DNA of 64,000 nt from Synechococcus sp. WH 8109 (GTDB lineage: Bacteria > Cyanobacteriota > Cyanobacteriia > PCC-6307 > Cyanobiaceae): assembly GCF_000161795.2 (NCBI RefSeq), contig NZ_CP006882.1, forward strand, positions 1,860,001 through 1,924,000. The letters are read 5' to 3'. This document shows, in pieces, positions 1 to 6,164 of the stretch. Made by a program: the position numbers and the translations under genes. Within the stretch, counting starts at the first letter, position 1. Each line of letters begins with the position of its first letter. The notes below the pieces were generated by a model that saw nothing but the letters and a program-made list of their open reading frames with translations, did not search any database and was not told where the DNA came from.

Positions 1-600
1 TATAAGCGGTATCAATGCGGCCAAACTTCGCACAAAAAGGGACATTGTGACACACGCACCAAAGCCAAGTATTTTCCAGCGAAAGATTCTACGCGATGCA
101 TCTTTAGCAGATGTTAAAAAATATACTTGTGCCATTATTAGTGCAATCAAAATCATATCAGGTCCTGCTGTACGCAACGACTGAAAATAAATAGGCATAG
201 CAATTAATGATAAAGAAGCAACCAGAGAATTCAGAGGCTTAAAGTATCTCAGAGAAGTAAAATAAAAAAACAATGTTGCTATATATCCTGCTACAATGCT
301 CGGCAATCTAGAAGCCCAGTCACTAATTCCAAAGATCTTCAGACTTATAGCGATTGCCCAATACGAACCAACTGTTTTGTGGTGAGGCGATGTAAATGGA
401 GAGAGCCAATCTCCTGAATCAGATATTAACCTTGCTCGTCTTGCATAAAGACCTTCGTCATGAGCGATTAAACTCTGAGCATCAGGCCACATTAGCGAAA
501 TAAAGACGATCAATATCAATAAAGATATAAGAAAAATATGTACATTTATAGTATTCTTTTTAAGAAGAGAACGCATTGAAAGCTTGTTAAGCAACTGCAT
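1..600 (-). CDS. GT39/ArnT-like membrane glycosyltransferase, N-terminal part (runs off the window)
   Basis: The minus strand is open from an ATG at 600 to the window edge (200 codons), so only the N-terminal part is visible. After a charged start there is a hydrophobic segment (about residues 20-38), then an acidic HDEGLYARRARL motif (Asp48-Glu49) on the first outer loop, then GDWLSPF and a KTVGSYWAIA stretch, followed by more membrane segments. This order is typical of GT-C enzymes of the PMT/ArnT type, which transfer sugars from polyprenyl-phosphate donors on the outer face of the membrane. A second possible start is the Met at residue 9. The region is AT-rich, unlike the rest of the window, which suggests horizontal acquisition. 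The acceptor cannot be told. Confidence 0.7.
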   Translation of the reverse strand, partial: MQLLNKLSMRSLLKKNTINVHIFLISLLILIVFISLMWPDAQSLIAHDEGLYARRARLISDSGDWLSPFTSPHHKTVGSYWAIAISLKIFGISDWASRLPSIVAGYIATLFFYFTSLRYFKPLNSLVASLSLIAMPIYFQSLRTAGPDMILIALIMAQVYFLTSAKDASRRIFRWKILGFGACVTMSLFVRSLAALIPLI

Positions 601-658
601 TGGGAAAGAAAGATTAGCTCTCAACAAAATTCAGAGTATCGATATAGGATATTGCACA

Positions 659-2221
659 TCACCTACTCAAGGCCTTGACACGACCAACTTTATAAATATG
701 GTATCTTTCTGGCTTATTATACGAACGAAGAAAACTTTTGACAAATTCAATCGTTATATCATCGGAGAGTTCTAAATGACCTCGCCCAAAATCATGCTTT
801 AATTTTGAGCTATTGCTTAGAATTACAAGCAACGAATTATTATTTGGATGCGAATCCATGTATTCTTGAATATAATCCAATGAGTTCTCTCTACTTAATG
901 ATGAATTCCGATTAACCCACTCAGCAAAGGTACCTAATCGATTGATTTCAGGATAATAAATTGATTTCCCAAGATAACCCGAGACAGAAGCAAGCTCTAC
1001 ATCCCTGGAACCAAACAAAGGCCAATTAGCATACTCTGAATTTCTTATAAAAGTAGCAACTTCTTTGCTCGCAGAATATGGGTAAACAATATCAAGGAAA
1101 ACCCTATGAATCCCTGCAAAGAAATGAATAACTAGAATAATAGATAAAAATAACGAGAATCTGGATTTAGATTCAATTAAATATGACTGCTTAACGTTGA
1201 CCCCCGAACTGCTGCAAGACACCGAAAGATCTGATCTACACAGCCAAACCGAAGCCATTATAATTATAAAATAAATTCCGAAATGCCTTGAGCCTGCGCC
1301 ACTATATACAGCAGCATTAAAGCAAAGCAAACAAAATGTAGACGAACAATAGAACAACAGCGCTTTTCGTGAACACCTTATATACAAGATTGTAGTTAGC
1401 ATTAATGCAACAGATACAGCAGCTGACACTGATAAATCAATCCATCGGGAGGAGTTAGGTACAATTAAAATATTACCACCTAAGTATCTACCAAAAGCAA
1501 CTAAAATTGACTTCAAGCTTATACCAATGGACGCACTATCAATACTTCGGGAGGTCTGAAAAAGGCTATTCAATGACAGCCATGTAGCAATAAATACAAC
1601 AATCGCAGACGCAAGGTAATTCAAAGAATCTACAGAAGAAAACTCCCGCTCACCTTTGCGTAATCTTTTATATAAAGTGTCATCGGCTACTGTAATAAAA
1701 AATCCAATTGCAATACTCCAAGCGAGAGCATGAGTATTCAGCAGCAAAGCTATGAGAAATGATATGCCAACTAGGCTATATTTTCTCTTGCTTACATAAA
1801 TTACGCCAACAAAAGTCAAAAGCTGGATTACAACATAGTGCCTAGAGATAAGGCAATACTCCCAAAACGGGAAATAGCCAAACGCGAATAATAACTTCTG
1901 AAACTTTGAGAAAGGAGCTCGACTTAAAAATACAAAGACACAAGTCGCCGCAAGTGACCATTGCATTAGCTGCAGGGACAATGGGTTTTCATATATCAAT
2001 GAAGATATAAACGTTAATAATGGGTAAACTATAGGATGTCCAGATGGAGCATTATTATTCCACAGCTCAAAAATATTTGAGCTTCCTACTGCTACCAACC
2101 AACCCTGCATCTCATCACGCCAAAGCACATGTGAAGAGACGCCAACTAGCGTAATCGCGATATAAATTATAAATACTACTTTAAGTGAGATTTTTGAGCT
2201 TAAGTGGCGTATAGACATCAA
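659..2221 (-). CDS. Polytopic membrane protein, probable GT-C-type glycosyltransferase
   Basis: This 520-residue protein has about ten hydrophobic segments. After the first segment (residues 12-33) comes an acidic LWRDEMQGW motif (Asp36-Glu37), the same place where GT-C enzymes carry their catalytic acidic residues. About the last 110 residues are hydrophilic, as in the soluble C-terminal domain of many GT-C proteins. I do not recognise a named family and the acceptor is unknown. It follows the partial glycosyltransferase gene's start region on the same strand with 58 nt between them, and both are AT-rich. They may belong to an island for surface polysaccharide or protein glycosylation. The function is inferred from topology and one motif only. 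Confidence 0.6.
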   Translation of the reverse strand: MMSIRHLSSKISLKVVFIIYIAITLVGVSSHVLWRDEMQGWLVAVGSSNIFELWNNNAPSGHPIVYPLLTFISSLIYENPLSLQLMQWSLAATCVFVFLSRAPFSKFQKLLFAFGYFPFWEYCLISRHYVVIQLLTFVGVIYVSKRKYSLVGISFLIALLLNTHALAWSIAIGFFITVADDTLYKRLRKGEREFSSVDSLNYLASAIVVFIATWLSLNSLFQTSRSIDSASIGISLKSILVAFGRYLGGNILIVPNSSRWIDLSVSAAVSVALMLTTILYIRCSRKALLFYCSSTFCLLCFNAAVYSGAGSRHFGIYFIIIMASVWLCRSDLSVSCSSSGVNVKQSYLIESKSRFSLFLSIILVIHFFAGIHRVFLDIVYPYSASKEVATFIRNSEYANWPLFGSRDVELASVSGYLGKSIYYPEINRLGTFAEWVNRNSSLSRENSLDYIQEYMDSHPNNNSLLVILSNSSKLKHDFGRGHLELSDDITIEFVKSFLRSYNKPERYHIYKVGRVKALSR

Positions 2222-2537
2222 CTTTTTAAAATAGGCAAGGCATATAAAGCGTAAGCAAAGATGGAGCGAAAAGATATTTTGTAACCAAATTTAATTACTT
2301 TTTTAGATTCAAAAGTATCGACTAGGTAGCAAGGCGAAGTATTGATTGCGATTAACGAACTCAGAACAAGACGAGGGTAATACTTAGAGCTAATCTAGAG
2401 AATATTATTACCAAGCGACCGCGGATCAGTACAAGCAGATTTACCATTCATTGCCGCCCAGGAATCGTCAATAAGAGCAGCCTAACGCTTAAAATAAAGG
2501 CAAATAAATTATAAAAGATTTTTGCAAAATAATTAAT
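2222..2537. other. AT-rich intergenic stretch at the island edge
   Basis: This 316-bp stretch has no convincing reading frame on either strand. It is AT-rich like the two glycosyltransferase-like genes to its left and stops sharply at 2537/2538, where a GC-rich copy of psbD begins. It should contain the promoter of the gene ending at 659. I see no tRNA, no integrase gene and no clear terminator in it. Confidence 0.6.
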
Positions 2538-3001
2538 GCAGACCTTCATTCAGAAGGATGTTCTTGGTGTAGAAGGTCTCGAATTCGGGATCTTCTGCAG
2601 CGCGGATTTCCTGTGACACGAAGTCATAGGCGCGCAGGTTGAGGGCCAGGCCGATGATGCCGATGGAACTTGTCCACAGGCCCATCACAGGCACGAACAG
2701 CATGAAGAAGTGCAGCCAGCGCTTGTTGGAGAAGGCGATACCGAAGATCTGACTCCAGAAGCGGTTGGCGGTGACCATCGAATAGGTCTCTTCTTCCTGA
2801 GTGGGCTCGAACGCCTTGAAGGTGTTGGCCTGCTCACCGTCCTCAAACAGTGTGTTTTCCACGGTGGCGCCGTGAATGGCGCAGAGCAGTGCACCGCCGA
2901 GGATGCCGGCGACGCCCATCATGTGGAAGGGGTTCAGGGTCCAGTTGTGGAAGCCCTGGAGGAAGAGAAGGAAGCGGAGATTGCAGCCACACCGAAGGAG
3001 G
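2538..3001 (-). pseudogene. psbD: psbD 3' fragment (duplicated piece of the D2 gene)
   Basis: This segment repeats 3991-4455 of the intact psbD in the same orientation. Comparing the two by eye I find no difference over the first 441 bp; near its upstream end the fragment lacks one A (opposite 4432) and has one T for C (2982 versus 4436). It covers codons about 170-325 of D2 and has no promoter, start codon or N-terminal half. Translation from the missing base is out of frame, so only residues 179-324 read correctly. It ends with a His codon and a TAA supplied by the AT-rich flank. It cannot make a D2 protein. It marks the junction between the AT-rich island and the core chromosome. Confidence 0.93.
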
Positions 3002-3114
3002 TGCAACCCCCTTGCAGGTCACAGCCAAAAGCAGCACCTTGCATAAAGCACAGGTTAAGCAAAGGTTTAGGAACGAAGTATGAGGCCGGAGTTCATCCAC
3101 CCCACAAGCGAACC

Positions 3115-3855
3115 GTGATTAAGGAACCCACTACAGCAAATCCAAACCAGATCGGAATCATTCCGCTCACGCCACGATCGATCCGAAAGCTGCTATTGGC
3201 CATCACCGCAGGGCTATTGCTGGCCCACAGCGTCGTGCAAGTGGGCATTTACGGCTTCGGGGCGGAGAAACATTGGCTGGACAGCCTCAACATGGACCGC
3301 GAACTCAACCTGCCCACACTGTTCAGCAGCGCGCTGTTGCTGATGGCGGCACTGTTGATGCAACGACTGGGGCAGAGCAGCGATCGCATCGCTGCTCAGG
3401 ACTGGCGTTTGCTGTCGAAGATTTTCATCTTTCTGGCACTCGACGAAGCCCTTCAGATCCACGAGATCCTTATCATTCCAGGGCTCAGGCACCAGGTGCA
3501 CCCAGCTCTGGCATCTACCTGGGTGGTGCCCTATGCCGTCCTCGCCCTCATCCTCCTGTGGCGGTTTCGCCACTTCCTCGGCTCAATCTCGCCAGCAACG
3601 GCATCACGGTTGCTGCGATCAGGTGCCGTTTACATCGGCGGTGCCATCGGCATGGAAATGATCGGCAGCTTCGCCGTTCGATCCAGCCTGATCCGCCTGC
3701 ATAGCCCCTGGTATGGCGCAATTACAGGTATGGAGGAAGCGTTGGAACTGCTTGGCATCATTCTGCTCATCGATGCACTGTTGCGAGCGCTGCTCGATCA
3801 ACGCAACAGAATTGATTTCACCTTGCGTCTGGGACCTAATTCAGACAGCAACTGA
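3115..3855 (+). CDS. Membrane protein of unknown function with LDExxxxHE and MEExxxxLGI motifs
   Basis: The frame encodes about 246 residues if it starts at the in-frame GTG at 3115. The frame is open further upstream, but that part is antisense to the psbD fragment and is unlikely to be real. There are five or six hydrophobic segments. One carries LALDEALQIHE, and a late segment carries MEEALELLGI. The acidic and histidine residues inside membrane segments hint at metal or cofactor binding, but that is a guess. A decayed gene at 46476-47100 shows the same motif order. The gene lies between the psbD fragment and intact psbD and converges on psbD with the terminator in between. The start codon is uncertain because no clear ribosome binding site is seen. 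Confidence 0.7.
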   Translation: MIKEPTTANPNQIGIIPLTPRSIRKLLLAITAGLLLAHSVVQVGIYGFGAEKHWLDSLNMDRELNLPTLFSSALLLMAALLMQRLGQSSDRIAAQDWRLLSKIFIFLALDEALQIHEILIIPGLRHQVHPALASTWVVPYAVLALILLWRFRHFLGSISPATASRLLRSGAVYIGGAIGMEMIGSFAVRSSLIRLHSPWYGAITGMEEALELLGIILLIDALLRALLDQRNRIDFTLRLGPNSDSN

Positions 3856-3857
3856 AC

Positions 3858-3885
3858 CAAAAAAAAACCGCCCGGTTGGGCGGTT
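3858..3885 (-). terminator. Rho-independent terminator of psbD
   Basis: Read on the minus strand, an 8-bp GC-rich stem (AACCGCCC/GGGCGGTT, at 3866-3885) with a 4-nt loop is followed by nine T residues. It lies 22 bp after the psbD stop codon. On the plus strand the same A-tract precedes the hairpin, so it is not a good terminator for the convergent membrane-protein gene ending at 3855. Confidence 0.85.
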
Positions 3886-3907
3886 GAAGGAACCATCGAA
3901 CTTGCGT

Positions 3908-4963
3908 TCAGAGGGCATTACCACGGGGCAGAACCTCTTCAGGGAAGACGAAGTTTTCGTGCGGCTGGTCAGCCGGTGCCATCCAGGCACGCAGACCTTC
4001 ATTCAGAAGGATGTTCTTGGTGTAGAAGGTCTCGAATTCGGGATCTTCTGCAGCGCGGATTTCCTGTGACACGAAGTCATAGGCGCGCAGGTTGAGGGCC
4101 AGGCCGATGATGCCGATGGAACTTGTCCACAGGCCCATCACAGGCACGAACAGCATGAAGAAGTGCAGCCAGCGCTTGTTGGAGAAGGCGATACCGAAGA
4201 TCTGACTCCAGAAGCGGTTGGCGGTGACCATCGAATAGGTCTCTTCTTCCTGAGTGGGCTCGAACGCCTTGAAGGTGTTGGCCTGCTCACCGTCCTCAAA
4301 CAGTGTGTTTTCCACGGTGGCGCCGTGAATGGCGCAGAGCAGTGCACCGCCGAGGATGCCGGCGACGCCCATCATGTGGAAGGGGTTCAGGGTCCAGTTG
4401 TGGAAGCCCTGGAGGAAGAGAAGGAAGCGGAAGATCGCAGCCACACCGAAGGAGGGCGCGAAGAACCAGCTGCTCTGGCCGAGGGGATACATCAGGAAGA
4501 CACTGACGAACACCGCGATCGGACCGGAGAAGGCGATGGCGTTGTAAGGGCGGATGCCCACCAGACGAGCGATCTCGAACTGACGGAGCATGAAGCCGAT
4601 CAGTGCGAAGGCGCCGTGCAGGGCCACGAAGGCCCAGAGGCCGCCGAGCTGGCACCAGCGAACGAAGTCACCTTGGGCTTCAGGGCCCCAGAGCAGCAGC
4701 AAGCTGTGACCCATCGCATCAGCGGGGGTGGACACAGCAGCGGTCAGGAAATTGCAACCTTCCAGGTACGAAGAGGCAATGCCGTGGGTGTACCAAGAGG
4801 TGACAAAGGTGGTGCCTGTCAGCCAGCCACCGATGGCCAGGTAGGCCGTTGGGAGGAGAAGGATGCCGGACCAGCCGACAAAAACGAAGCGGTCGCGCTT
4901 GAGCCAGTCATCGAGGACGTCAAACCATCCCCGCTGTGGCGCGCGTCCTACAGCGATCGTCAT
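3908..4963 (-). CDS. psbD: Photosystem II D2 reaction-centre protein
   Basis: The product is the full 351-residue D2 subunit of photosystem II in the thylakoid membrane. Key residues are visible: His116 (accessory chlorophyll), Tyr159 (redox-active tyrosine D), His196 (P680 chlorophyll), His213 and His267 (non-haem iron) and Trp252 near QA. I chose the ATG at 4963, giving the usual [10 protein letters not shown] start; the frame is open 49 codons further upstream but that is not part of the family. No psbC follows, so this is a monocistronic psbD, probably the second copy that cyanobacteria carry besides psbDC. Its 3' half is repeated at 2538-3001. The UPF0367 gene diverges from it across 164 bp. 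Confidence 0.98.
3991..4455. repeat. Parent copy of the psbD direct repeat
   Basis: This part of intact psbD is repeated at 2538-3001 in direct orientation, offset by 1453 bp. It encodes D2 residues about 170-325, including both iron-ligand histidines. Recombination between the copies would remove the membrane-protein gene at 3115 and the psbD terminator, and would replace the last 27 codons of D2 by a single His. Confidence 0.95.
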
Positions 4964-6086: not shown

Positions 6087-6158
6087 TCCTCGGTAGCTCA
6101 GCGGTAGAGCGGTCGACTGTTAATCGATTGGTCGCAGGTTCGAATCCCGCCCGGGGAG
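6087..6158 (+). tRNA. tRNA-Asn (GUU)
   Basis: The 72-nt cloverleaf has an acceptor stem TCCTCGG pairing with CCGGGGA (one T-G pair), a D-arm with GGTAGAGC, an anticodon stem GTCGA/TCGAT around loop CTGTTAA (anticodon GTT), and a T-loop TTCGAAT. The discriminator base is G and CCA is not encoded. The middle pair of the T stem (GCAGG/CCCGC) is an A-C mismatch, which is unusual. A strong terminator follows 6 nt after the gene. Confidence 0.95.
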
Positions 6159-6164
6159 CTTTAA

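Follow-up and report, generated by a model that had tools for sequence, protein, structure and literature searches.

A truncated third copy of psbD in Synechococcus sp. WH 8109, probably a rearrangement scar kept identical to the working psbD genes by gene conversion

The DNA considered here, referred to as the window, is a 64-kb stretch of Synechococcus sp. WH 8109, i.e., positions 1860001-1924000 of a single-contig genome of 2,111,515 bp. Toward the left end of this window (Table 1) a complete gene for the D2 protein, psbD2, is found next to gene M, followed leftward by a second, truncated stretch of psbD, here designated psbD', and then by AT-rich DNA that includes the glycosyltransferase-type genes GT520 and GT540.

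Table 1. Features at the left end of the window, in window coordinates
Feature	Position	Strand	Basis or remark
GT540 (PMT_2 family), 5' part	1..627	-	gene runs beyond window (L037:4006-5628)
GT520, AT-rich, first gene of swapped-in cassette	659..2221	-	Pfam: no match
AT-rich stretch upstream of GT520, 316 bp	2222..2537	.	sharp join to psbD' at 2537/2538
psbD', truncated psbD copy	2538..3001	-	repeat search, alignment; frameshift by 1-bp deletion at ~2977/2978
Remnant, ~30 bp, 5' end of the divergent 312-320-aa gene of relatives	3002..3032	-	alignments; TTG start lost
Gene M, membrane-protein-like, adjoins psbD2 in relatives	3115..3855	+	Pfam: no match
psbD2, complete D2 gene, 351 aa	3908..4963	-	psbC not next after psbD2

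That 464 bp of psbD are repeated here had been claimed in a sequence-only reading of this DNA, and the repeat is real. A search of the whole 64-kb window (exact seed 16, minimum 40 bp) returns a direct repeat, 2538-3001 (464 bp) versus 3991-4455 (465 bp) at a spacing of 1453, and no further repeat families. Upon full alignment the two copies differ by one 1-base deletion, i.e., of an A at ~2977/2978, and by one substitution, C>T at 2982. Both differences are no more than 25 bp from the right end of 2538-3001, and leftward of them psbD' is identical to psbD2 as far as the junction at 2538. The fragment thereby covers psbD codons ~170-324, that is, nt 509-973 of the 1056 nt of the gene. Its reading frame is lost near its start via the missing base, its end is the island junction, and the frame that lies over it (2533-3006) gives a Photo_RC Pfam match. 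The left copy was said as well to end where AT-rich DNA begins, and so it does, with a GC content of 0.342 for 2222-2537 versus 0.575 for psbD' (0.369 from GT540 to the fragment). Deletion between the copies would, as was also correctly foreseen, cost D2 its last 27 residues, the product being one of 325 residues (ending ...NEGLH, then stop). Among the matches listed from the open-licence literature, no published report of psbD' was found.

A second complete psbD, psbD1, is found in inverted orientation at a distance of ~305 kb (G000:C1:1558164-1559219, G000 being the window's own genome). Its protein is identical to that of psbD2, it is as similar to psbD' as psbD2 is, and it is overlapped downstream by a psbC-like frame which, from its sequence, we take to be psbC. 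Deletion between the repeats had been expected to be selected against unless another psbD exists. As another psbD does exist, that selection argument is moot.

Of 34 same-genus genomes searched for copies of psbD, with the best candidates, at most 16 per genome, being scored, 28 yielded a match. Third copies were counted solely among the 14 genomes of two or fewer contigs, as the contigs of draft genomes often end in psbD. A third psbD place is seen in one of these 14, the window's own genome, while 12 have two such places and G004 has one among the matches listed. Contigs of G021 (C7), G027 (C4), and G028 (C11), along with contig L074, start or end inside psbD, as would be predicted were identical copies to break assemblies.

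Pairs of full-length psbD genes were compared within 13 genomes (draft genomes as well as G004, with its one listed place, being left out), and in every one the pair is separated by 1-6 differences over 1056 nt, all 13 pairs having at least one of these within the last 19 nt. Outside of those 19 nt, differences are seen only at nt 6, 9, 21, or 123, in four genomes. Identity between these paralogues is 0.994-0.999, versus 0.86-0.98 for the other 12 genomes against G000, a comparison in which the first-listed psbD of G007 (perhaps also of G001 and G003) is the psbC-linked type, leaving the within-genome comparison unaffected. Paralogues of psbD within a genome, that is, are closer to each other than are orthologues between genomes, which is the pattern of concerted evolution.

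In relatives, a divergent gene of 312-320 aa lies between a glycosyltransferase gene and gene M. Both G012 and G023 have this gene, which diverges from gene M, together with a DUF2079-type gene (the Pfam assignment having been run on the G012 gene) where the window's genome has instead GT540, GT520, and psbD'. The AT-rich GT520-GT540 pair together with psbD' thus replaces the divergent gene of relatives, with ~30 bp of the start of the latter left in place. DNA similarity to relatives sets in again at 3000-3006 in five of the 16 loci compared (G012, G023, G002, G021, and G033) and at 3037-3048 in three (G022, G028, and G030); the remaining eight lack a DNA match to gene M. The slot itself, bounded here by gene M (3115) on one side and by the left-hand glycosyltransferase gene on the other (L037:2394-3974), is variable, and is occupied by membrane glycosyltransferase-like genes: in G012 by a 320-aa gene plus the DUF2079 gene, in G023 by a pair resembling these two along with a gene of 482 aa, and in G027 by a 464-aa gene plus GT540 and GT520.

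At the left junction, 2537/2538, no relative of the AT-rich side (2222-2537) was found with which to compare it, either among the compared loci or elsewhere in the genome. Descent of this stretch, via decay, from gene M, the 312-320-aa gene, the DUF2079 gene, or psbD was considered and set aside, with tblastn giving E values of 0.15 or worse only, and its alignment to the corresponding spacer of L074 scores 17.0, under the shuffled mean of 18.3. Between about -1027 and 3855 no mobility gene was noticed among the frames that were read, and the sole tRNA of the window is found at 6087-6159. A genomic island with an integrase or tRNA edge is not supported as a description of this locus.

Relatives of GT520 are present in 46 of 400 genomes of the family, the window's own included, mostly at 36-40% identity, and 34 of the 36 named loci at which genome_contigs has a relative are from Prochlorococcus (mostly 35-42%). 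The closest of these relatives are found in L074 (55%) and in G027 (63% over a partial match), and both have GT540 adjoining. In G027, GT520 and GT540 stand next to the same left-hand glycosyltransferase gene, with the contig stopping inside GT520. L074 (WTIP01000071.1), a contig of 4.1 kb, is assigned to a MAG of Flavobacteriales but in all likelihood comes from a marine cyanobacterium and was binned wrongly. It carries a psbD 3' end, a gene M homologue, GT520, and GT540 (53%), and its M-GT520-GT540 block is without a psbD fragment. As the glycosyltransferase cassette thus occupies the same slot in other lineages, and does so in L074 without the fragment, psbD' therefore is not part of that cassette. 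The sequence-only reading had joined fragment and island at one boundary. At the same locus in relatives the island is indeed present, i.e., in L074 beside gene M, but the psbD fragment is not, and the two consequently are separable.

The right edge of psbD' continues into the ~30 bp in which the beginning of the lost gene is recognizable by alignment. It is at this joint that psbD and the column consensus of eight relatives share the sequence GAGGGCGCGA, of which 8 bp are present in G021 and 7 bp in G022, with G023 and G033 possessing the full 10 bp and the other four relatives having one or more substitutions inside. For a random joint between psbD and the lost gene, the chance of a run of at least 10 is about 1.1e-5 and that of a run of at least 8 is 2.5e-4 to 2.9e-4, assuming a fixed joint, as a slide of 1-2 bases would raise P somewhat. 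The shared 10-mer, a short sequence common to both sides of the breakpoint, points to a microhomology join. The remnant, at its left edge, would seem to carry this joint in decayed form, that is, the sequence now present differs from the GAGGGCGCGA consensus and the joint thus has changed since its formation. The two 10-mers, furthermore, are in direct orientation and one repeat spacing apart, and tandem duplication between them would therefore yield exactly the joint that is observed.

The flank beyond the joint has diverged as well. Over 3002-3114 the window's genome differs at 20 of 96 sites that are invariant in six relatives, each relative differing at 0-6 of 76-82 (with the more distant G022 and G030, though aligned among the eight, left out of these counts). 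By 40-bp bins, divergence stands at 11 of 30 in the bin adjoining the joint, four bases of which belong to the fragment, and falls to zero ~200 bp away. Along the same branch, third positions of gene M, leaving out its first 14 codons, have changed at 9 of 153, versus 18 of 88 for the flank at 3012-3114 (Fisher 0.0011). Given this excess over third positions, simple drift is not the whole explanation, and import from an unsampled lineage or instead error-prone repair may have contributed. The interior of psbD', by comparison, is changed at 0 of 435 positions versus 2 in the 30 bp that adjoin the joint (Fisher 0.004, with this 30-bp cut-off set only once the data had been seen), and versus the 9 of 153 of gene M third positions (Fisher 4.6e-6), an absence of change with P of 3.5e-12 at the gene M third-position rate. 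That interior carries all four of the psbD substitutions which, in this stretch, separate the window's genome from six relatives. Dating of psbD' nonetheless rests on few sites, i.e., two tail changes and the ~30-bp remnant.

We view psbD' as probably an older, truncated third copy of psbD, one which sits at a rearrangement scar and which has been kept identical via psbD gene conversion. In a first step, psbD at ~nt 509-518 would have become fused with the beginning of the divergent 312-320-aa gene next to it, by way of ~8-10 bp of shared sequence. This may have come about through a 1.45-kb tandem duplication between the two direct copies of the 10-mer, or instead through microhomology joining of an incoming donor psbD end, either of which would result in the same joint and which here are indistinguishable. 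In a second step, the old divergent gene pair would have been exchanged for the AT-rich GT520-GT540, an event that trimmed psbD' on its left at the boundary so created; the first and second steps could have taken place in either order. Third, the conversion that keeps psbD1 and psbD2 alike presumably acted on the fragment too and held it identical to both, with only the last ~25 bp by the joint escaping conversion and drifting. The shared 10-mer suggests that the joint predates the changes in the flank, and, if it does, then the interior of psbD' must since have been overwritten with psbD sequence.

Recent duplication or gene conversion, as the sequence-only reading had offered, is the right pair of alternatives. 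Between them the evidence favours conversion, since differences between psbD pairs are confined to gene ends (13 of 13), since those of the fragment are found only at its right end, and since the joint looks old. Counting against conversion are the left end of psbD', which lacks an unconverted tail, and the occurrence of the full 10-mer in only two of eight relatives. Among the genomes compared, none was seen to have a fragment in an intermediate state of partial divergence. Were psbD' instead a very young copy, generated as end-joining filler or by template switching and identical solely through youth, then its ~440 identical bases, inclusive of the four genome-specific substitutions, would readily be accounted for, as too would be the restriction of the third copy to one of 14 genomes and the sharpness of the left junction. 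The joint, however, fits the relatives' consensus of the lost gene rather than the present, decayed sequence, and both differences cluster by that joint. Error-prone joining could mimic a consensus-matching joint along with clustered changes, all made at once, and recent duplication thus is a serious reading, albeit one that we consider unlikely.

It is very improbable that the fragment is not chromosomal, i.e., that it is an artefact of mis-joined psbD repeats. Draft contigs of G021, G027, G028, and L074 do start inside psbD, but psbD' possesses two private differences and a decayed joint which the other copies are without, the blocks both up- and downstream retain the order and orientation seen in relatives (G012, G023, and G002), and the alternative connection would presumably give a free circle of gene M. 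Somewhat less credible still is that the repeats are kept as a switch, with deletion of gene M plus truncation of psbD2 representing a useful state: the geometry of the repeats allows such a deletion and a second psbD would cover the loss, but signs of selection were not found, the arrangement is known from one genome only, and the deletion would be irreversible. Least plausible, to the point of being barely worth entertaining, is the idea of recombination with a cyanophage psbD that also delivered the island, phage-mediated recombination having earlier been thought conceivable, for while 423 phage records have a similar psbD, six of these fall within the 80-90% identity band and none above it, the best among the matches listed being 81.0% versus a two-change match to the host, and contigs of cyanobacterial type carry the same glycosyltransferase pair at this chromosomal position, no phage gene having been noticed in their listed frames.

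The components of this likely scenario are ordinary, namely the swapping of a cassette, the scar of a microhomology join, and known psbD gene conversion. Concerted evolution of psbD across cyanobacteria has been published for full-length genes (PMC6053082). As there, two loci with conserved neighbours are kept alike in each genome, here in 13 of 13 pairs, but, unlike those full-length cases, here a truncated and frameshifted third copy matches too. A functional gene and a dead copy also reportedly exchange sequence within a genome in the rpl23 gene/pseudogene pair of barley chloroplasts (PMC6620283), though that system is organellar, concerns another gene, and involves polymorphisms in mutator seedlings rather than, as here, inference from sequence alone. 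Homology-facilitated illegitimate recombination and microhomology-mediated tandem duplication (a topic of PMC6382021) similarly display short shared sequence at a joint and foreign DNA beside a conserved flank; in the present case, by contrast, the joint is known on the right side only and no donor is named.

The locus shows a glycosyltransferase-type cassette swapped in beside a core photosystem gene. That the non-coding fragment has become a permanent third partner within the psbD conversion network, able to donate sequence back and serving as a point of recombination near a photosystem gene, seems to us distinctly doubtful. If the conversion reading is true, then the identity of psbD' lies beyond the reach of selection, the copy undergoing conversion being a dead fragment and not, like psbD1 and psbD2, a functional gene. 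A dead fragment identical to a working gene would be, that is, a selection-free recorder of bacterial gene conversion, with the edge of the identical tract gauging how closely conversion reaches toward the end of homology: here to ~25 bp from the joint, and, in all 13 full-length pairs, to 19 nt or less from the 3' end.
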